Origin: Candidatus Hydrogenedentes bacterium CG07_land_8_20_14_0_80_42_17 | GTDB taxonomy: Bacteria; UBA8481 | Direction of reading: 5' to 3' | Length of the DNA: 19,393 nt | Assembly (NCBI GenBank): GCA_002780065.1 | Contig: PEWQ01000025.1 | Coordinates: 1-19,393 of the forward strand | Part shown: positions 1,573-15,855 of the stretch, in pieces | Position numbering within the stretch: the first letter of the stretch is position 1 | Layout of the letters: each line of letters starts with the position of its first letter | The notes under the pieces: generated by a model | Seen by the model: only the letters and a program-made list of their open reading frames with translations | Databases searched by the model: none | What the model was told of the DNA's origin: nothing | Program-made: the position numbers and the translations under genes

Positions 1573-2403
1573 ATGTTTCGAGAATTTTTGACTCCATCAA
1601 CAATAGAAGAGGCAGTGAAGCTCCGCAATTCGATTGATTCCTCGATGTACCTTGCCGGTGGAACAGAAATAAATTCCATTGTATGGCCGTGCAGATCGAA
1701 GATTTCTGCGAATACAGCTATTTATCTTGATAAGCTTCCTTTGAAAAATGTAAAGGTAGAGAAAACTAAAATAGAAATTGGAGCGAGCGTTACCATTCAG
1801 GAATTGGTTGAGAACAAATCTTTGCCGCCGATGCTGCTTGCGGCGGTTAGGCTTTTTGCAAACCGCAACGTTCGAACTATGGGAACGATTGGCGGAAATA
1901 TCGGAGGCAATCGCGCGTGCTCAAATATTGCCCCGGCGCTATTGGCTCTAAATACTTCGATAATGCTGGCAGGAAAAAACAGCAAGGAAAAGATAACACT
2001 CGAACAGTACTTTTCAAATCATGATCCCGAAAAATTAATTCTTTCAATTGAGATTCCTTCAGGTTGGCAGAAACGAAGATGGGCTGTCAGAAAGCATACT
2101 CGGACTGCAAATGATGTTTCACTTGTCTCCGCCGCTGTTTCTTTCTCGGGAACTGAGGCAAAGATAGAAGAACCTATTATTGCCGTGAATGGAGTTGTTC
2201 CTCATGCGACGAGGCTATATGAATTGGAAAAAAAATTAGATGGGCAGAGTTTGCCGTCCAGAGAAGCAATTGATGAAGAGGTCAAGAAATTAGTGAATCC
2301 TGAATCGGACTTACGAGGAAGCTCTGAGTTCAAGAAACATCTTTCGGCAGTGCTTGTAAGTGATGCTCTGCATGAAGCTGCGCACAGGGTGGTTTGCCGA
2401 TGA
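1573..2403 (+). CDS. ygfM: FAD-binding subunit of a molybdenum hydroxylase (YgfM/XdhB-like)
   Basis: The flavin subunit that passes electrons from the 2Fe-2S centres to an acceptor. Its 276 residues belong to the CO dehydrogenase/xanthine dehydrogenase FAD family. The first FAD loop is LAGGTEINS (27-35), and the second is TIGGNIGGN near residue 105. The C-terminal subdomain includes a DLRGSSEFKKHL stretch. The opening FxxFxTPSTIEEAxxL and the DLRGS...KxHL...VLVSDAL ending resemble E. coli YgfM, the probable FAD subunit of the XdhD enzyme. A good ribosome-binding site (AAGAGGTGA) precedes the ATG. The stop overlaps the next start as ATGA, so the two subunits are translationally coupled. Confidence 0.9.
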   Translation: MFREFLTPSTIEEAVKLRNSIDSSMYLAGGTEINSIVWPCRSKISANTAIYLDKLPLKNVKVEKTKIEIGASVTIQELVENKSLPPMLLAAVRLFANRNVRTMGTIGGNIGGNRACSNIAPALLALNTSIMLAGKNSKEKITLEQYFSNHDPEKLILSIEIPSGWQKRRWAVRKHTRTANDVSLVSAAVSFSGTEAKIEEPIIAVNGVVPHATRLYELEKKLDGQSLPSREAIDEEVKKLVNPESDLRGSSEFKKHLSAVLVSDALHEAAHRVVCR

Positions 2404-5273
2404 AGATTGAATTTACTTTAAACGGAGCAAAAAAAGAATTTGAAGTTGAGCCTAGCGAGCGAGCTTTGTATCTGCTGAAGCGAATTGGAGTTATGGCAAT
2501 GCATGACGGTTGCAATGGCGGCGGAGTGTGTGGAATATGCTCGATTCTGCTTGATGGAAAATTGGTCAACTCGTGCCTCTTGCTTGCTCCTCAACTTGAC
2601 GGACGAAGTGTGATTACTCTTGAATATTATTCGAAGCATAGAACTCTAACTGTTGTTCAAGCGTCTTTATTAGATGCCGGAGCTGTTCAGTGCGGCTATT
2701 GCACTCCATCATTTGTTCTCGCTATTGAAAGCCTTTTGAAACGAAATCCTGATCCTTCCGACAGAGATATTACCGATGCACTGTCAGGGCTATTTTGCCG
2801 CTGTACAGGCTATAAACAGTATTACAGTGCAGTTAAGCTTGCGGCAAAAAGATTGAAGGATCCAAATTACAATCCGCCGCTCGTGCCTGAATTTCGCGAT
2901 GAACTCAGAGTGGTTGGAAAACGCAAAAACAAAATCGACGGGCCAAAACTTGTTCGCGGCCAGAAAGCTTATGTCGAAGATATGGTGCCGAAGGACGCAT
3001 GCGTTTTGAAAATGCTTAGGTCTCCTTATGCTCATGCATACGTAAAATCGATAGATACATCAGAAGCAGAAAAAGTTTCTGGTGTGGTTTATATTTTGAC
3101 TCACAAAAATTGTCCTGATGTTTATTACAATCAAGCGGGGCAGGGTTTTCCTGAGCCTTCGCCTTATGATCGCAGATTGATCGATCAGAAAGTTAAGCAT
3201 GTTGGCGACAGAGTTGCAGCAATTGTTGCGGAAACATGGACGGCGGCGGAAGAGGCGGCGGAAAAGATTAAAGTTGAATACGAGGTATTAAAACCTGTGT
3301 TGACGATTGAAGATGCTGAATCGCCTGATGCTCCAATTATACATAACTCTCATGCTGAGTATGTAGTTGGCGCACCTCCGAATCTTGATGAGTATAATAA
3401 ATCTGCTGATTCAAGAGACGGTAAGATCATTTATCAATTTCCGATTAACGCCGATCCGCACAAGAATATCGCCGCAAGTGTCCATGGACATATTGGAGAC
3501 CTCGAAAAAGGTTTCGATGAATCTGACACAATAATTGAACGCGAGTACGAGAGTTCTCAGGTGCAATGCACTCCGACCGAAACGCATGTCGTTTACACTC
3601 GAATGGACGGCGAACGGCTCGTGATTCATGCTTCGACTCAGGTGCCGTTCCATCTGAGACGAATAGTTGCGTATATTCTTGGCACGAGTGAAAATAATGT
3701 TCATGTAATAAAAGAACGCGTCGGAGGAGGATTCGGTTCGAAGCAAGATATTGTTCTTGAAGAGGTACCTGCGTATCTGACTTGGATAACCGGGCGAGCG
3801 ATCTATCAGAGATTCACTCGCGAAGAAGAATTTATTGCATGCAGAACTCGGCATGTTATGAAGATAAAGGTTAAGCTCGGAGCGAAGAAGGATGGAAAGC
3901 TAACCGGAGTTTATATGGATTTGAAAGCGAATACAGGTCCTTACGGTTCGCACTGTCTTACCGTGCCGATGAATGCGTGTTCAAAATCGCTTCCGCTTTT
4001 TCTGTGCGACAATATTGGTTTTAATGTTACAACCTACTATTCGAATATTGCTCCGACAGGCGCTTATCAGGGCTATGGTGCTCCAAAAGGCTCTTTTGCT
4101 TTACAGCTTGCAATGGCGGAATTGGCTGATGAACTTGGAATGGATCACATAGAACTTATCGAAAAAAATCGTGTCCGTGAAAATGTTGTTCTCGAAATAT
4201 TGAAGTGCCTTGGAGAAGGAAGGGAAGGAAAACCTGAATTAGTTTCAAGCTGTGGATTGGGACCTGCCTTGAAGCGTGGCGCAGAGCTGATCGTGTGGGG
4301 AAAAGAAGAAAAAAATAGCGAACCGGATTTAAGGATTGGAAAAGGTGTGGCAATTATTCAGCAGGGCTCAGGGCTTCCAGGACTCGATTCATCGAATGCG
4401 GAAATAAAATTGCTTTCGGACGGAACCTTTATGGTTTATTCGGGCGGAGCGGATATTGGAACAGGACTCGATACGGTTGTCGTGAAGTTTGTTGCCGAAG
4501 CGCTTTGTGTAGATATGGAAAAGATATCGATTATTTCTGCCGATACCGATAGCACTCCGTTCGACTGCGGAGCTTATGCGTCTAAGGGAACTTATTTTAC
4601 AGGCGGCGCGGCTTTGAATGCCGCAAACGCTTTGAAAGAGAAGATTCTCGATACAGCGGCTTTGATTATGGAAGAAAAGCGTGAAGATATGCGGCTGGAA
4701 TATCCTGGAAAAGTTGTGGGCAAGAATAAGTCGATCTCATTTTGGGAGATTGCGCATTATGCCGAAACAGGAACAGGTTGTGGATCACTCTCCGCATTCG
4801 GACATTTTGTGACGGATAAATCCTCTTTTCCGTACGGAGCACATTTCTGCCAGGTCGCAGTAAATACGAGAACAGGGAAGGTCAAGATTCAAAAGTATTT
4901 TGCTTTGCAGGACTGCGGAACTCCAGTGAATCCGGAGATGGCTCTGGGACAAATTTACGGCGGAGTATTGAAGACTATCGGGCATTCTTTATACGAAGAG
5001 ATGATTTACGATGAAGATGGAAAATGCTTGAATCCTAACTTTTTGGACTACAAAGTTCCAATGATAGAAGATTTACCCGATACTTTTTTAGCCGAACTGG
5101 TCGACGTAAATGACCCATGGGGCCCGTTCGGCGCTAAATCAGTTTCCGAGATTGCATGCAACGGCGCGGCTCCGGCTATAGCATCGGCAATTCATAACGC
5201 TGTCGGAGTATGGATGCGGACTTGGCCGTTTTCCCCAGAGAAGATATTGAGAGCTCTCGGAAAGATAAAATGA
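2400..5273 (+). CDS. xdhD: Fused 2Fe-2S / molybdopterin subunit of a xanthine-dehydrogenase-family hydroxylase (XdhD-like)
   Basis: The catalytic subunit, probably hydroxylating a purine such as hypoxanthine or xanthine. The 957-residue chain joins two subunits that are usually separate. Residues 1-155 hold the plant-type 2Fe-2S centre (C38, C44, C47, C59) and the second centre (C98, C101, C133, C135). From about 170 onward is the molybdopterin domain, with GGGFGSK (442-448), GAYQGYGAPKG (554-564), GGADIGTGL (682-690) and the catalytic Glu at 917 in AKSVSEI. Compared with bovine xanthine oxidase, the conserved Arg of RGFG is Gln557 and the Gln of GQG is Thr688. Length, fusion and neighbours match E. 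coli XdhD and other proteins linked to selenium-dependent molybdenum hydroxylases. I chose the ATG at 2400 (ATGA overlap) over the TTG at 2394. The exact substrate is not visible in the sequence. Confidence 0.9.
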   Translation: MKIEFTLNGAKKEFEVEPSERALYLLKRIGVMAMHDGCNGGGVCGICSILLDGKLVNSCLLLAPQLDGRSVITLEYYSKHRTLTVVQASLLDAGAVQCGYCTPSFVLAIESLLKRNPDPSDRDITDALSGLFCRCTGYKQYYSAVKLAAKRLKDPNYNPPLVPEFRDELRVVGKRKNKIDGPKLVRGQKAYVEDMVPKDACVLKMLRSPYAHAYVKSIDTSEAEKVSGVVYILTHKNCPDVYYNQAGQGFPEPSPYDRRLIDQKVKHVGDRVAAIVAETWTAAEEAAEKIKVEYEVLKPVLTIEDAESPDAPIIHNSHAEYVVGAPPNLDEYNKSADSRDGKIIYQFPINADPHKNIAASVHGHIGDLEKGFDESDTIIEREYESSQVQCTPTETHVVYTRMDGERLVIHASTQVPFHLRRIVAYILGTSENNVHVIKERVGGGFGSKQDIVLEEVPAYLTWITGRAIYQRFTREEEFIACRTRHVMKIKVKLGAKKDGKLTGVYMDLKANTGPYGSHCLTVPMNACSKSLPLFLCDNIGFNVTTYYSNIAPTGAYQGYGAPKGSFALQLAMAELADELGMDHIELIEKNRVRENVVLEILKCLGEGREGKPELVSSCGLGPALKRGAELIVWGKEEKNSEPDLRIGKGVAIIQQGSGLPGLDSSNAEIKLLSDGTFMVYSGGADIGTGLDTVVVKFVAEALCVDMEKISIISADTDSTPFDCGAYASKGTYFTGGAALNAANALKEKILDTAALIMEEKREDMRLEYPGKVVGKNKSISFWEIAHYAETGTGCGSLSAFGHFVTDKSSFPYGAHFCQVAVNTRTGKVKIQKYFALQDCGTPVNPEMALGQIYGGVLKTIGHSLYEEMIYDEDGKCLNPNFLDYKVPMIEDLPDTFLAELVDVNDPWGPFGAKSVSEIACNGAAPAIASAIHNAVGVWMRTWPFSPEKILRALGKIK

Positions 5274-9292: not shown

Positions 9293-10180
9293 ATGTCATA
9301 CGAACTTGGAAAATATATCAAAAATTTTATCGAGCATATCGAGAAGAACCGCAATGCCAGCCCGAACACAGTAATCGCGTACAAAAATGATCTTGAGGCG
9401 GCCGCTTTATTTTTCGGAAAAGATAAATTCGTATCTGAAATGACTCGGTCGGACATTCGGTCATTTATGAGCAGTCTCTCTCAAAATGGACTTTCTCCCA
9501 AAAGCTGCGGCAGGCATCTGGCTTCACTTCGTTCTTTCTTCCGTTTTTTGATTTGCGAAGAGATTGTAAATTCCAATCCTGCTCGAGGAGTCATTACCCC
9601 GCGCTCATCAAAAGACTTGCCGAGATTCATATCCGAAAATGATATGAAAAATTTACTCGATGGAGCATTCAGAGATGACGCTATCGGAATCAGAGACAAA
9701 GCAATTCTTGAACTCTTCTATTCGACCGGAGCGAGAATTTCGGAAATAGCTTCTCTAAATATTGACGACATCGATATGGAGTCGGAGGAATTGAGAATTC
9801 TCGGAAAAGGCTCAAAAGAACGAATTGTTCCGATCGGCAGTGCCGCGAAAGAATCGCTCTCAAAATGGATTAGCTCAAGATCAAAAATGATTCGCCATTT
9901 CGAACGCGCTCTATTCGTCAATGCTCGAGACGGAAAAAAATTGTCAGTCAGAGGAATGCGGCTTGTAATCTCAGAGTATCTGGCAAGAGTCAATCCCTCG
10001 GCAAAAAATCCGCACGCGATTCGTCATAGTTTTGCGACTCACATGCTCGACCACGGAGCAGACTTGCGCGCTGTTCAGGAATTGCTCGGACATTCTTCAC
10101 TGGCCACGACACAGAAATATACTCATGTTTCGATAAAAAGGATAAAAGATTTATACCGCGGCGCTCATCCCCGCGCGTAA
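9293..10180 (+). CDS. xerC: Tyrosine recombinase, XerC type
   Basis: A site-specific recombinase that resolves chromosome dimers at dif with a partner (XerD). The 295 residues comprise an N-terminal SAM-like core-binding domain (about 1-95) and a catalytic domain with a complete active site: R148 (STGARISE), K172 (GKGSKER), H241 and R244 (HAIRHSFATH), H267 (LGHSS) and nucleophile Y276 (QKYTHVS). The ending YRGAHPRA is characteristic of XerC rather than phage integrases. No attachment site, excisionase or cargo lies around it, so it looks like a housekeeping gene. No ribosome-binding site is visible at the ATG. It ends only eight bases from repeat copy B. Confidence 0.9.
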   Translation: MSYELGKYIKNFIEHIEKNRNASPNTVIAYKNDLEAAALFFGKDKFVSEMTRSDIRSFMSSLSQNGLSPKSCGRHLASLRSFFRFLICEEIVNSNPARGVITPRSSKDLPRFISENDMKNLLDGAFRDDAIGIRDKAILELFYSTGARISEIASLNIDDIDMESEELRILGKGSKERIVPIGSAAKESLSKWISSRSKMIRHFERALFVNARDGKKLSVRGMRLVISEYLARVNPSAKNPHAIRHSFATHMLDHGADLRAVQELLGHSSLATTQKYTHVSIKRIKDLYRGAHPRA

Positions 10181-10188
10181 TCGAATTA

Positions 10189-10250
10189 CCAGCCTATCTT
10201 CCGTGGAACGCGTAAAATAATTGAAAAAAGAAAATTGGAAAAATAAAATT
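10189..10250 (-). repeat. Dispersed repeat, copy B
   Basis: Read on the minus strand, this stretch matches window positions 1-62 at about 90 percent, ending in the same GGAAGATAGGCTGG and diverging after it. It starts where similarity to ferredoxin-NADP reductase stops in the overlapping reading frame, and ends eight bases beyond the xerC stop. It therefore sits at the truncation point of the reductase gene. Confidence 0.7.
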
Positions 10251-10565
10251 TTCAATTTGCACTTTATGCAGTCTCGGAGTCAATGCGCCTGATCTGACTA
10301 AGCTGATATAAAATTCAACATACTCTTTCGACATTGAAGAAGACGCAACAGAATACGCTCTGCGAATCATTTTATCGGGGTCGGCAGGCGGTTCTTCAGG
10401 ATCCGAGAAAACAGATCTCGGAGCCGAATATGGAAGCCCTAGCACTCCATACTGGCCTGGAATAAAATCAGGAAGAGTTCGACCTATCGGAGCAATCTTA
10501 ATCGCAAAATTTCCTGGCGCAAATTCTATTTTGCCGACAACTTTTGCATTGAGTTCAGTTTTCAT
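10194..10565 (-). pseudogene. fpr: 3'-truncated ferredoxin-NADP(+) reductase (FAD domain only)
   Basis: The first ~100 codons encode the FAD-binding barrel of the Fpr family: DFIPGQYGVLGLP near 33-45, the flavin motif RRAYSVASS (68-76), VEFYISLV (83-90), then GALTPRLHKV. A full Fpr is roughly 250-290 residues with an NADP-binding domain; here only 123 residues remain. After KVQI the frame runs into repeat copy B, giving a Phe/Ile-rich tail (FIFPIFFFQLF) unlike any Fpr. The NADP domain is absent and xerC follows directly on the other strand. Its start is 30 bases from the stop of the kinase-flavoprotein gene on the same strand, so it may once have been the second gene of that operon. A still-folded short protein cannot be excluded. 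Confidence 0.75.
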
Positions 10566-10595: not shown

Positions 10596-13064
10596 TCATA
10601 ACAGTGCTTCCTGCTCAAAAGGCCATGCGAAAAAACCGCCTTCAAGAATATTTACTTTGTCAAATCCTTGAGAACGTAAAATACAAGATGCCTCGTATGA
10701 GCTCAATCCGGTCGAGCAGTAAATAACAATTTCTTTGTCTTTAGGAAGTTCATGCAGTCTGCCGCGAAGAGATCTCAAAGGAATAGATAAAGCGCTTGGA
10801 ATCATTCCTTGACTCAGTTCCTCCTGATTTCTTACGTCAACAATTATCGTCTCTTCCTTCGCATCTAATTTATGTTTTAGTTCCAATGCAGATATACCGG
10901 TAAAGCTTCCTATAAATTTATTTTTGTAAACATTAGCGGCAATGCAAACAATATCCATTGGAGTCGAATACGGAGGCGCATAACCAAGATCAAGTTTCGA
11001 GAGAGCATCTATCGTTTCTTTTGTAGAAAGCAACGCCGCCGCAACATCTATTCTCTTAGAAATATCTCCGTGCCCTACAGCTTGCAAACCTAAAATACGA
11101 CCCGAATCTCTGTCTCCGATAAGTTTCAAAATAATATTTTTTGCAGACGGATAATAATGCTCTTTATCTGAACCTGTCACTACAACAGAGAGAGGATTAA
11201 ATCCTGCTTCAATCGCATCGGTTTCATTTAAACCTGTGCATCCAATATTGTAATCAAAACTTTTTAGGACAATCGTTTCAACGATGCCGGGAAATGCTTC
11301 AGAATTCAAAATCACATTTGTTCCGGCAACTCTGCCCTGCCTGTTAGCGACTGAGCCTAAAGGCAAAAGAACCGGCTTGCCTGTGATGATATCGCGGTTT
11401 TCAACACAATCCCCTATAGCGTAAATGTCCGGTTCACTCGTTTGAAGCCATTCGTTTACCTTGATTCCTCCTGTCTCGCCTATTTCCAAAGCGGCAGAAA
11501 CTGCCAACTTAGTTTCAGGCGCGACGCCGGTTCCGAAAATTAAAATCGTAGCCGGCAACTCTCTTTTGTTCGTAATCACTTTCGTGACCGCACCATTTTC
11601 GCCAACTAATCTCATCACGCGTTCGTCTGTCAGTATCTTTACTCCGTGCTGATTAAGATGTTTTTGAACGAGTAAAGCAATTTCAGGATCGAGCATAGAA
11701 AGCACTTGGTCTCTAGCTTCAACGATAGTGACCTGCAGTCCGCATGACGCTATTGCTTCAGCAGATTCAATCCCAATCAGTCCGCCTCCAACTATAACGG
11801 CGTTGTTGCCGGAAATATCCTTTAGAGCCTTTCTCATTCCGCGAGCATCTTCAATGCGATTCAACGTAAAAACATTTTTCAAGTTTAAACCTTCGATGGA
11901 CGGAATTATAGGCCTGCCCCCTGTGGCAAGAATTAATTTATCGTAGACTAGTTTTCTAATCTCATTGTCTCTCAGAAATTTAATTTCAATCTCTTTCTTA
12001 GTTTTGTCTATAGAAAGACATTCAGTTCTGTTGTAAACGGCAATGCCTTTGACTCGCCTAAAAAATTCAGGATCACGCAGATCACCGTCAGGCGTTGTCA
12101 TCAACATTCTGGTATCTTTTACATGCCCTGCTAAAAAATACGGAAGTCCACAGCCCGCATAAGAAAGAAAACGTTCGCGCTCTATCACCGTAATATCAGC
12201 GTCTGCATCCATTCTGAGCGCTCGCGCCGCCGCCTTCGGTCCTGCCGCGCGGCCGCCGATAATCACAATTTTTTTTCGCTTTCTTTTCTCTGGCTGTTTT
12301 GCTTTTTCTTCTTCAGTTACTTGCACCATCGGCATCGTGAAACGAAATATAGTTCCCTTCCCGACCTCACTCTCAAATTCCAATGTGCCTTTATAGGATT
12401 CTATAATTCTTTTGACTATCGCAAGTCCCAATCCCGTTCCTTCCCGCTCTTCCAACTTTGCATTGGGCGCCCTGTAAAACTCTTCAAAAAGATTACCTTT
12501 GGACTCGGCAGGAATTCCTATTCCGGTATCCGAAATACTTCCTTCCAATCTTCGAAGCGGAATCGAATAATTTAACCAAACTTCGACTCTGCCTCCTGTA
12601 GGCGTATACTTAACTGCATTCTCTATTAGATTAAAAAACACATGTCTAAAGCTGTCTCTCTGAGCCCACACCTGAGGTAAAATCGATTCAATCTTAATAT
12701 TCAGTTCAACGCCCTTCAACCTTGCTTTGGCATCGAGCACTTCCTTGATTTCTCCCATCTCTCGTTCGAGGCCGACTTGTTCATAACTAAGTTCTTTTTC
12801 AGCATCACTTAGCTGAGCTAAGTCCATGAGCTCATTCAACATGTTCATCATGTCCCTGGTTTTTCGGTCAATGCCTTCCAAAAGCTGTTTCACTTGAGAC
12901 GATGAGAAATCAACATAACCTCCAAGAATGGTTTTAATCTGAGTGCTGATAGTTGAAAGCGGCGCTCGCAGTTGATGAGCTCCAACACGAAGCACTTGCC
13001 ATTTATCTTTTGCCGATATTTTATTTTCGGAATTTTTTCTAGTATTTTTTTTTCTATTAGGCAT
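10596..13064 (-). CDS. Histidine kinase fused to a CoA-disulfide-reductase-like flavoprotein and a rhodanese domain
   Basis: One uninterrupted 822-residue chain with three modules and no membrane segment. Residues 1-250 are a histidine kinase: H-box AHQLRAPL with phospho-acceptor H30, N-box NLIENAVKYT (145-154), ISDTGIGIP (177-185) and GTGLGLAIV (209-217). A basic linker (about 251-265) follows. Residues 266-720 are a pyridine-nucleotide flavoprotein of the CoA-disulfide reductase/NADH oxidase group: FAD loop VIIGGRAAG, redox Cys305 in SYAGCGLPYF, NAD loop VGGGLIGIE (425-433), YAIGDC (548-553) and LDLGYAPPYS (691-700). Residues 725-822 are a rhodanese with Cys783 in YCSTGLSSYEA. Flavoprotein-rhodanese fusions are known; the kinase front end turns the enzyme into a possible sensor of thiol or persulfide state. 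The ATG at 13064 is preferred over a TTG at 13070. The divergent receiver gene is the likely partner. Confidence 0.92.
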   Translation of the reverse strand: MPNRKKNTRKNSENKISAKDKWQVLRVGAHQLRAPLSTISTQIKTILGGYVDFSSSQVKQLLEGIDRKTRDMMNMLNELMDLAQLSDAEKELSYEQVGLEREMGEIKEVLDAKARLKGVELNIKIESILPQVWAQRDSFRHVFFNLIENAVKYTPTGGRVEVWLNYSIPLRRLEGSISDTGIGIPAESKGNLFEEFYRAPNAKLEEREGTGLGLAIVKRIIESYKGTLEFESEVGKGTIFRFTMPMVQVTEEEKAKQPEKRKRKKIVIIGGRAAGPKAAARALRMDADADITVIERERFLSYAGCGLPYFLAGHVKDTRMLMTTPDGDLRDPEFFRRVKGIAVYNRTECLSIDKTKKEIEIKFLRDNEIRKLVYDKLILATGGRPIIPSIEGLNLKNVFTLNRIEDARGMRKALKDISGNNAVIVGGGLIGIESAEAIASCGLQVTIVEARDQVLSMLDPEIALLVQKHLNQHGVKILTDERVMRLVGENGAVTKVITNKRELPATILIFGTGVAPETKLAVSAALEIGETGGIKVNEWLQTSEPDIYAIGDCVENRDIITGKPVLLPLGSVANRQGRVAGTNVILNSEAFPGIVETIVLKSFDYNIGCTGLNETDAIEAGFNPLSVVVTGSDKEHYYPSAKNIILKLIGDRDSGRILGLQAVGHGDISKRIDVAAALLSTKETIDALSKLDLGYAPPYSTPMDIVCIAANVYKNKFIGSFTGISALELKHKLDAKEETIIVDVRNQEELSQGMIPSALSIPLRSLRGRLHELPKDKEIVIYCSTGLSSYEASCILRSQGFDKVNILEGGFFAWPFEQEALL

Positions 13065-13101
13065 TCTCAAACCTATATTTTTGGAATTTTATTATTTTCA
13101 T
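13057..13101 (-). CDS. Possible 14-codon leader peptide before the kinase fusion
   Basis: On the minus strand a strong ribosome-binding sequence (GGAGAAGAG) directly precedes an ATG that opens a short frame, MKIIKFQKYRFENA. Its stop TAA lies just inside the kinase gene, out of frame with it. The kinase ATG has only a weak AGG upstream, so its translation could be coupled to this leader. The frame is too short to be judged by composition. Confidence 0.3.
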   Translation of the reverse strand: MKIIKFQKYRFENA

Positions 13102-13155
13102 CTCTTCTCCAATATATTTTACTTTACAATATCAATTTCACAAAATATTTAAATA

Positions 13156-13183
13156 TTGCCAGAATAACTATTTGTGATATGAT
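13156..13183 (+). promoter_or_regulatory. Promoter of the response-regulator gene
   Basis: TTGCCA (13156-13161) and TATGAT (13178-13183) are spaced by 16 bases. Initiation near 13190 leaves a short leader with GGAGGG (13198-13203) before the ATG at 13215. It lies in the 150-base divergent region shared with the kinase fusion gene, so both genes could be controlled from it. Confidence 0.5.
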
Positions 13184-13214
13184 TCTCATATAGTTTTGGA
13201 GGGATTCAAATAAA

Positions 13215-13586
13215 ATGGCAAATAAGAAAAAGATATTATGTATAGATGATGATGTAGAACTTTTGAATGCGTTGAAAATAATTTTAGAAAGCGGCGGATT
13301 CACTGTTATCACGGCAGAGTCAGAAGATGACGGAATAAATAAATTCAAAGAGAGCAAACCCGATCTTGTTCTATTGGATCTCATGATGGAAAATACTGAT
13401 TCAGCTGTAAATTTCATGAACCAAATAAAAAAAGAGGGAGCGCTTCCTCCAATCTATCTCTTGAGTTCAGTCGGAACCGATTTTTATCAAAATGTTGATA
13501 TAAATCAATTCGGATTTTCCGGTGCTTTTCAAAAGCCGATTGACCCGCAAAATTTACTAAAGCTTATTAATACTCGTCTTTCGTAA
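13215..13586 (+). CDS. Stand-alone response-regulator receiver domain
   Basis: A 123-residue CheY-like receiver with no output domain. The acidic pocket is D11-D13 (CIDDD), the phosphorylation site is D55 (VLLLDLMM region), the switch Ser is S84/S85 (LLSS), and the conserved Lys is K107 in FQKPID. A good ribosome-binding site (GGAGGG) precedes the ATG. Transcribed divergently from the kinase-flavoprotein-rhodanese gene, it is the obvious candidate to receive phosphate from H30 of that protein. With no DNA-binding domain, its output must go through protein contact or a further phosphorelay step. The nearby motA/motB genes make a motility target conceivable but unproven. Confidence 0.9.
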   Translation: MANKKKILCIDDDVELLNALKIILESGGFTVITAESEDDGINKFKESKPDLVLLDLMMENTDSAVNFMNQIKKEGALPPIYLLSSVGTDFYQNVDINQFGFSGAFQKPIDPQNLLKLINTRLS

Positions 13587-14295: not shown

Positions 14296-15051
14296 TTAAG
14301 ATTTAAGATGACTCCATCTAACAACAATTTCGACTCTGCGGTTTCTCGAATAATAATCCTCGTCAGTCTCGTCAGGAAATCTAGGAACCGGTCTTTGGTC
14401 GCCGTAACCTGCTACTGACATTCGCTTCTTCTCAATATTTCGAATGGAAAAAGATCTATAAACAGAAATAGCTCTATCAGTTGAAAGAGTAAGATTGTCC
14501 CTATTTCCCAATGCATCAAAAAAAGCAACAGCGTCCGTATGCCCTTCAATTCTGAAATCAGCTCCAGCCGCAGGACCATTCAGAAAAAACGAAATTCTGT
14601 CAAGAAGCGGTCCTGCTTCAGGTTTCAGTATCGATGATCCGGCATCAAACAGGACAGAATTTGTAATACTGATCTTGAACCCCTCTTCTGTCTGTTCAGC
14701 AGTCACTGCCTGACCGAGCTGATCTTTCAGCCAACCCATGAGTTCAGGCGCAGTCGACATAATAGGCGTTTGAGCCTCTCCAAGAGGTTCATTTCGGTCA
14801 CCTCTATTCAATAATCTCTGCCTGCTTAAATTAATTGTTTCGCCGCTCTCCATAAAACCTACTCCAAAAGTCACAGCCATCGATTTGACTGCAGCCTCAA
14901 ACTTATTCGCATCGAAAGTTGCAAAAGATAGAAGCGCCACAAAAAACGCCATAAGATTCGTCATCATGTCTCCGTAAGAAAGACACCACGGAGCAACGCC
15001 TTGCGGATATTTTACGTTATGACCGCAATTTGGGCATTTTTTTATCGCCAT
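14296..15051 (-). CDS. motB: Flagellar motor stator protein MotB
   Basis: The peptidoglycan-anchored half of the stator. After a short N terminus containing a CPNCG knuckle (C6, C9), a single transmembrane helix begins at PWCLSYGDMMT and carries the proton- or sodium-binding Asp28. A plug/linker region follows, then an OmpA-like peptidoglycan-binding domain from about 125: VLFDAGSSILKPEA, RIEGHTDAV, LSTDRA and the basic NRRVEIVVR near the end. The 251-residue length is normal. The ATG lies six bases after the motA stop, so the two are co-expressed. The extra CxxC pair ahead of the helix resembles the Cys-rich starts seen in some other MotB proteins. No flagellar structural genes lie in this window. 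Confidence 0.93.
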   Translation of the reverse strand: MAIKKCPNCGHNVKYPQGVAPWCLSYGDMMTNLMAFFVALLSFATFDANKFEAAVKSMAVTFGVGFMESGETINLSRQRLLNRGDRNEPLGEAQTPIMSTAPELMGWLKDQLGQAVTAEQTEEGFKISITNSVLFDAGSSILKPEAGPLLDRISFFLNGPAAGADFRIEGHTDAVAFFDALGNRDNLTLSTDRAISVYRSFSIRNIEKKRMSVAGYGDQRPVPRFPDETDEDYYSRNRRVEIVVRWSHLKS

Positions 15052-15057
15052 ACTTTA

Positions 15058-15855
15058 TTATTTTTCACCGCGGCTAAGAGCATATTGAGTCGCATTCGCA
15101 GAAGATAAGAATGAAAGAAGTTTTTCTTCTACGATTCGCGGATTGTCGCCTGACTGAATCGCGAGCACTCCTTCGATCATAAGATTTCGAACAAGCATCT
15201 CCTCGTCGTTCATCTTAGCAAGTTTTGTTTGGATAGGACCAGCAATCGCATTAGCAATAATTACACCGTAGAAAGTCGTTAGCAAAGCTACTGCCAAAGA
15301 CGGACCTAACGTCCCTGGATCTTTCAAATTGCGTAGAAGCTGAACAAGTCCGAGAATCGTCCCCATTAATCCAAAAGCAGGCGCTCTGATTTCAATCATG
15401 TTAAAAACACTTATTGCCGCATTGTGCCTATCTTCCATCTTCGAGTTTCTAATGTTCATGATCGTCTTGACTAATTCAGGATCAGTTCCATCGATCACGA
15501 GCTGTAACGCTCTCTTCAAGAAGTCATCAGTTATCTCTTCGAGATTATCTTCCAGAGAAAGAAGTCCTTCTCTCCTTGCTTTTTCGGAAAGAGAAACCAT
15601 CGTCGGAATTACTGCAATCGGATCAAATTTCGGAATGCTAAAAATCAATCTGAAATAGCGGAATATTCCTCTGTATTCCTTTGAAGTATAGGCTAAGATA
15701 AACACCATTGTAGTACCGCCGATAGTGATAAAAGTCGACGGGATGTCCAGATACGCTCCAAGAATTTCATACCAAACACCAGGCCTGCCCCAAAGAGCTC
15801 CAAGGCATACCATTACGAATACGCCAACTAAACCTATAATACTACCTATCTGCAT
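15058..15855 (-). CDS. motA: Flagellar motor stator protein MotA
   Basis: The channel subunit that converts ion flow through the stator into torque on the rotor. Four hydrophobic segments are visible over 265 residues: about 5-24, 38-56, 155-175 and 185-208. The cytoplasmic loop holds KARREGLLSLE (92-102), the charged region that contacts FliG. The third helix begins with APAFGLMGTILGL, carrying the conserved Pro159. A modest ribosome-binding site (TGAGG) precedes the ATG. It is the first gene of motA-motB. No convincing sigma-28 box is seen upstream. Confidence 0.94.
   Translation of the reverse strand: MQIGSIIGLVGVFVMVCLGALWGRPGVWYEILGAYLDIPSTFITIGGTTMVFILAYTSKEYRGIFRYFRLIFSIPKFDPIAVIPTMVSLSEKARREGLLSLEDNLEEITDDFLKRALQLVIDGTDPELVKTIMNIRNSKMEDRHNAAISVFNMIEIRAPAFGLMGTILGLVQLLRNLKDPGTLGPSLAVALLTTFYGVIIANAIAGPIQTKLAKMNDEEMLVRNLMIEGVLAIQSGDNPRIVEEKLLSFLSSANATQYALSRGEK

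Follow-up and report, generated by a model that had tools for sequence, protein, structure and literature searches.

The window analysed here, a stretch of 19,393 nucleotides, carries on its minus strand (10596..13070) a gene in which ORF and Pfam analysis place a HisKA-HATPase_c histidine kinase, an Npsr-type flavoprotein and a rhodanese in one polypeptide. The frame begins at TTG 13070 (824 aa) or ATG 13064 (822 aa), contains no internal stop, and its stop codon ends at 10596. The original prediction of one continuous frame at 10596-13064 stands in its extent, but the strand must be minus: on the plus strand this interval has no open frame and many stops. The key residues named there by ATG numbering (His30, Cys305 and Cys783) are correct and become His32, Cys307 and Cys785 when counted from the TTG. 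All Pfam assignments exceed the gathering cut-offs, with HisKA (residues 30-87, 31.7 bits) followed by HATPase_c (138-248, 93.8 bits), Pyr_redox_2 (267-559, 225.9 bits), Pyr_redox_dim (605-702, 48.5 bits) and Rhodanese (728-816, 70.9 bits). Kinase (residues ~3-252, 12315..13064, from Pfam, motifs and alignment) and flavoprotein are joined by a charged linker of 16 aa (residues ~250-265, 12273..12323, minus strand) devoid of a start codon. GC and GC3 are alike in the two modules (0.41/0.43 and 0.38/0.37), and base composition therefore gives no sign of a chimeric join.

Divergent from the fusion, on the plus strand at 13215..13586, lies a lone receiver-domain response regulator (123 aa; Pfam and motif evidence, Asp55), which the original prediction had overlooked and which is the likely partner and proposed phospho-acceptor. 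The two genes have in common an intergenic region of 144 bases (13071..13214), where a promoter-motif scan of both strands returned promoter-like matches at no more than chance frequency. A minus-strand ORF of 14 codons, MKIIKFQKYRFENA (13057-13101), has a good GGAG site, lies immediately before the fusion gene and overlaps its ATG; a leader peptide or translational coupling is possible. Thirty bases downstream of the fusion, a truncated minus-strand ORF (10194..10565) resembles the N-terminal part of a ferredoxin-NADP reductase (FAD_binding_6). After ~100 aa it runs into unrelated AT-rich sequence, and it adjoins a XerC/D-like recombinase gene (9293-10180, plus strand); it may be a disrupted gene or mark an assembly join. 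Farther away, a motA/motB pair (14296-15855, minus strand) lies two genes past the lone receiver and is not conserved near the other fusions. A one-piece Mo/Fe-S oxidoreductase (2394-5273, plus strand) scores above the TIGR03313 (Se_sel_red_Mo) cut-off and is flanked by a MobA-like transferase, with a xanthine/uracil permease further on, a region that is likely a purine-hydroxylase cluster.

Intact copies of the fusion were found in four other genomes (G106, G281, G597 and G783; 803-825 aa), so the three-module protein put forward in the original prediction is real. Around 950 genomes were searched, several times under strict E-value limits, and these counts are lower bounds. The G106 protein is the sole full-length homologue in the 44 genomes of another phylum; it shares 45% identity with the window protein across 800 residues, and the alignment has 3 gap positions. 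The third fusion (G281) came from a sample of 383 genomes and the fourth (G597) from 395 genomes of a phylum holding a Desulfuromonadales genome; the fifth (G783) was found among 17 genomes of the class of G597, in which two further copies (G720 and G422) are cut by contig ends where a kinase region would lie. G106 and G281 thus represent two phyla other than that of the window, while G597 and G783 belong to a single class within another phylum group. In each of the four homologues Pfam recovers flavoprotein, rhodanese and HATPase_c domains, and in three of them also HisKA at the E 1e-4 limit; G597 falls short of it, yet its H-box is visible in the alignment. The active-site and rhodanese cysteines and the His, N and G boxes are retained throughout the five fusions.

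These homologues bear directly on the suspicion that two adjacent genes were fused by an assembly or sequencing artefact. The source genome is a fragmented metagenome-type assembly (207 contigs, 87% complete), which gives the suspicion some ground, but the identical gapless architecture recurs at 41-45% identity in unrelated genomes, base composition is uniform and the start codon between the modules is absent. A frameshift or assembly error, named at the outset as what could overturn the prediction, is answered by the four intact copies, and a frameshift or lost stop is ruled out by the homologues together with the composition of the junction. We regard an artefactual origin as vanishingly improbable.

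Elsewhere the searches returned unfused enzymes. Across 98 sampled genomes, the majority of them from separate families, CoADR or CoADR-rhodanese occurred only unfused; the fusion was absent from G001, the only other genome in the phylum of the window, and searches of the small phyla to which G025, G031 and G041 belong gave none. No plasmid record covers >=80% of the query. Genome contigs compared with the whole protein yielded no fusion; the six peptide patterns all came from the window sequence. Three CoADR matches in long frames (L011, L013 and L017) were considered as fusions and rejected, the N-terminal kinase being absent; in several relatives of ~820 aa the extra length lies at the C-terminus instead.

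The kinase half of the window protein has an H-box HQLRAP with His32, an N-box NLIENAVKYT, and the motifs DTGIGIP, FEEFYR and GTGLGL. It thus has the full set of N, G1, F and G2 boxes, which by alignment are mostly kept in the four homologues, with N-box variants in G281 (NGIS) and G597 (SLLNNAVKYT). The phospho-accepting histidine lies ~20-32 residues from the N-terminus in every fusion, and neither the window protein nor the four homologues has an input domain before HisKA. PAS, HAMP and membrane segments had been reported absent, which our data bear out: there is no corresponding Pfam match and the maximum 19-residue hydropathy of the kinase half is 0.57. The protein is, by this prediction, cytosolic.

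Active HisKA kinases usually have Glu or Asp at H+1, which serves as the catalytic base, and Thr or Asn at H+4, which aids phosphatase activity. The fusions carry neither: their H-boxes (HQLRAP in the window, HQ[LI][KR]SP in the four homologues; HQ[LI][KR][AS]P overall) have Gln at H+1 and Ala or Ser at H+4, which leaves the strength of the kinase uncertain and puts its phosphatase activity in doubt; both may be weak. HQ or HN H-boxes are common in the nearest unfused kinases, which argues for a subfamily trait rather than decay after fusion. One could take Gln at H+1 in all five proteins, with the N-box variants in G281 and G597, to mean that the kinase half is dead or kinase-weak and serves to scaffold the dimer or to sense ATP. 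Yet the His, the Mg-binding Asn, DxGxG and GxGLG persist in all five despite identity of ~36% or lower, receivers stay linked, and HQ/HN boxes are frequent among the closest unfused kinases; we judge a dead kinase half very improbable.

A lone receiver adjoins three of the five fusions: divergently in the window, directly upstream on the same strand in G106, where a PAS kinase precedes it, and convergently downstream in G281. Since the same kind of partner stands in three different orientations, a functional link is favoured over inherited gene order. At E<=1e-14, the G106 neighbour was the only one of 21 candidate receivers to match the window receiver, although the DVU0259/DivK-like group that includes these lone receivers is broad, and non-neighbours (e.g. 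G046a) are almost equally good matches to the window receiver. No receiver lies within ~4 kb of the fusion in G597 or G783. Two-component genes also occur beside relatives of the reductase: a receiver and a PAS kinase upstream of an unfused relative in G088, and an OmpR-type regulator with a HAMP kinase downstream of a relative in G422.

The enzyme half consists of an FAD/NAD(H) persulfide-reductase-like module (residues ~266-722, 10905..12275, minus strand; Pfam, PDB match and motifs) and a C-terminal rhodanese module (10596..10889, minus strand; Pfam and motifs) with Cys785 in a CSTGLSS loop. Active-site Cys307, the NAD motif GGGLIG and both CoA-pocket tyrosine motifs (EHYYP and YAPPYS) are present. 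As in Npsr and CoADR-rhodanese enzymes, an FAD/NAD flavoprotein with a single active Cys is followed by a Cys-bearing rhodanese; unlike them, the enzyme is not stand-alone but has an N-terminal kinase, in five genomes. The best solved relative is Archaeoglobus fulgidus NoxA-3/Npsr (PDB 6pfz; E 6e-147, all 550 residues), ahead of Bacillus anthracis CoADR-rhodanese and Shewanella loihica Npsr (3nta, 3icr). The alignment to AfNpsr is gapless across the loop by which AfNpsr restricts its CoA pocket, with the same loop length and with both cysteines and the tyrosine motifs kept. TIGR03385, the NCBIfam CoA-disulfide reductase equivalog, is the top-scoring family at 399.4 bits, below its curated cut-off of 578.8.

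AfNpsr uses NADH to reduce persulfides and polysulfide and leaves CoA disulfide untouched; sulfur travels from Cys519 of its rhodanese through bound CoA to Cys42 (PMC7969121). CoA disulfide, which the original prediction had stressed among the possible inputs, is thus less likely, the nearest enzyme being inert to it. Given the AfNpsr-like pocket and motifs and the missed TIGR03385 cut-off, persulfide or polysulfide is the likelier substrate, and persulfide/polysulfide or NADH appears the likelier input. A second, unfused CoADR-rhodanese of the same genome (G000:C122:6787-8427; L034, L056) is 38% identical, adjoins an RND-type efflux cluster and belongs to the opposite half of the family tree; the fused copy is therefore not the genome's sole enzyme of this type.

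The flavoprotein-rhodanese tree places the window, G106 and G281 in one group (support 96/83). A second group holds G597, G783 and both truncated copies and is nested with unfused G100 and G123 proteins (100/99). A single clade of all fusions is rejected by this tree (AU p 0.007; p 0.025 in a four-row version); the kinase-module tree does not reject it (AU p 0.09). We therefore favour more than one fusion event, kinase loss or swap being the alternative; repeated fusion, if it occurred, would speak for a functional cause. The junctions can also be read as the mark of a co-expression fusion, with kinase and reductase working independently and joined through one redox-stress regulon. A Met resembling the former reductase start persists at the junctions of G597 and G783, without an evident ribosome-binding site, and close unfused relatives lie in oxidative-stress or thioredoxin clusters (G123 and G100). 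The junction start codon is however gone in the window, G106 and G281, and none of the five kinases has the input domain of its own that an independent kinase would be expected to need. We hold mere co-expression to be unlikely. In G123, the unfused close relative L086 (G123:C796) lies, by eye, near rubrerythrin, peroxiredoxin and superoxide-reductase-like genes, which suggests an oxidative-stress role for that enzyme branch.

With moderate confidence, we propose a cytosolic two-component kinase that uses its entire C-terminal NADH-dependent persulfide/polysulfide reductase, rhodanese included, as the sensor and signals to the adjacent receiver. The enzyme is the only evident sensor since no other input domain occurs in any of the five homologues; the original proposal to this effect is reinforced, HisKA standing at the start of all five. 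From the sequence we infer enzyme activity, sensing, the direction of control, phosphotransfer and downstream output. Sulfane sulfur would be taken up by rhodanese Cys785 and passed via enzyme-bound CoA to Cys307 beside the FAD, where NADH would then reduce it. The occupancy and redox state of this centre (NADH-bound, with reduced flavin, or as a Cys307-CoA mixed disulfide) would alter the enzyme dimer, and this change would shift the ATPase domain relative to His32 and so set autophosphorylation. Such a change could reach the kinase because DHp and flavoprotein are both obligate dimers and the linker between them is short and charged. Phosphate would finally pass from His32 to Asp55 of the adjacent lone receiver. 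Sensors usually lie N-terminal to HisKA, and a C-terminal one is unusual, which counts against the reading we favour. An AlphaFold model from a four-row alignment (pLDDT 52) is too poor to give the arrangement of the modules.

The opposite direction of control, in which the enzyme is the output and the kinase tunes the persulfide reductase by binding ATP, by autophosphorylating or by contacting a receiver, deserves consideration: all catalytic motifs of a working reductase are kept, the kinase occupies a possible position for a regulatory domain, and in G106 the role of true sensor could fall to a second kinase, one with a PAS domain, next to the receiver. Histidine kinases act via phosphotransfer to receivers, though, and a lone receiver adjoins three of the five copies; moreover, we know of no way in which a HisKA module could gate a disulfide reductase of the flavoprotein type. 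Control of the enzyme by the kinase seems to us distinctly unlikely.

If the enzyme does act as the sensor, a histidine kinase would directly monitor how active a sulfur-reducing enzyme is, with no small ligand-binding domain as sensor, the Npsr fold would be a new sensor module, and anaerobes would have a persulfide/NADH gauge feeding into a phosphorelay. Cells with the fusion may pass sulfur or NADH status directly to a two-component signal. More tentatively, and at somewhat less than even chances, we speculate that these proteins form a class of cytosolic two-component kinases in which a complete, working metabolic redox enzyme at the C-terminus is the sensor and reports NADH and persulfide/polysulfide turnover to a lone receiver; such a class would have originated repeatedly, would extend over several phyla and would have a sister design with HydG.

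CoADR-rhodanese fusions and the separate parts are already known; for a kinase-first fusion of this kind we found no description in the open-licence literature, an absence that is weak evidence. The Npsr enzymes of A. fulgidus (6pfz) and S. loihica and the B. anthracis CoADR-rhodanese have the same flavoprotein with a C-terminal rhodanese, but are stand-alone and kinase-free, whereas the window enzyme is preceded by 265 kinase residues. HK853, PnpS/PhoR and WalK share with the fusion HisKA, HATPase_c and all nucleotide-binding boxes; the fusion differs from them in lacking an N-terminal PAS/HAMP/TM sensor, in having a C-terminal enzyme as putative sensor and in its HQ[LI][KR][AS]P H-box. Among sulfide/sulfane-sulfur two-component and repressor systems, NreBC with YrkD in Bacillus licheniformis ties sulfur-species status to a two-component pathway (PMC9918477). 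Unlike the window fusion, NreB senses via PAS with no enzyme fused, and NreC is a DNA-binding regulator.

Among the systems compared, the HydG-fused kinases of G041 and G142 (L057 and L104) belong to the kinase subfamily of the fusion (support 96/96) and likewise carry an enzyme after the kinase. These are minus-strand genes encoding proteins of 1113 aa (6TM-GAF-HisKA-HATPase_c-HydG; L057:2248-5589, and L104:85-3426, equal to L159:1542-4883), and the HydG part of L057 scores 529.6 bits against a TIGR03955 cut-off of 312.15. In G142, the gene beyond the upstream receiver resembles, by eye, an [FeFe] hydrogenase. As in the window, a lone receiver gene lies next door, here directly upstream; the HydG-fused kinases differ in that their enzyme is the [FeFe]-hydrogenase maturase HydG and that they have a GAF domain and membrane segments of their own.
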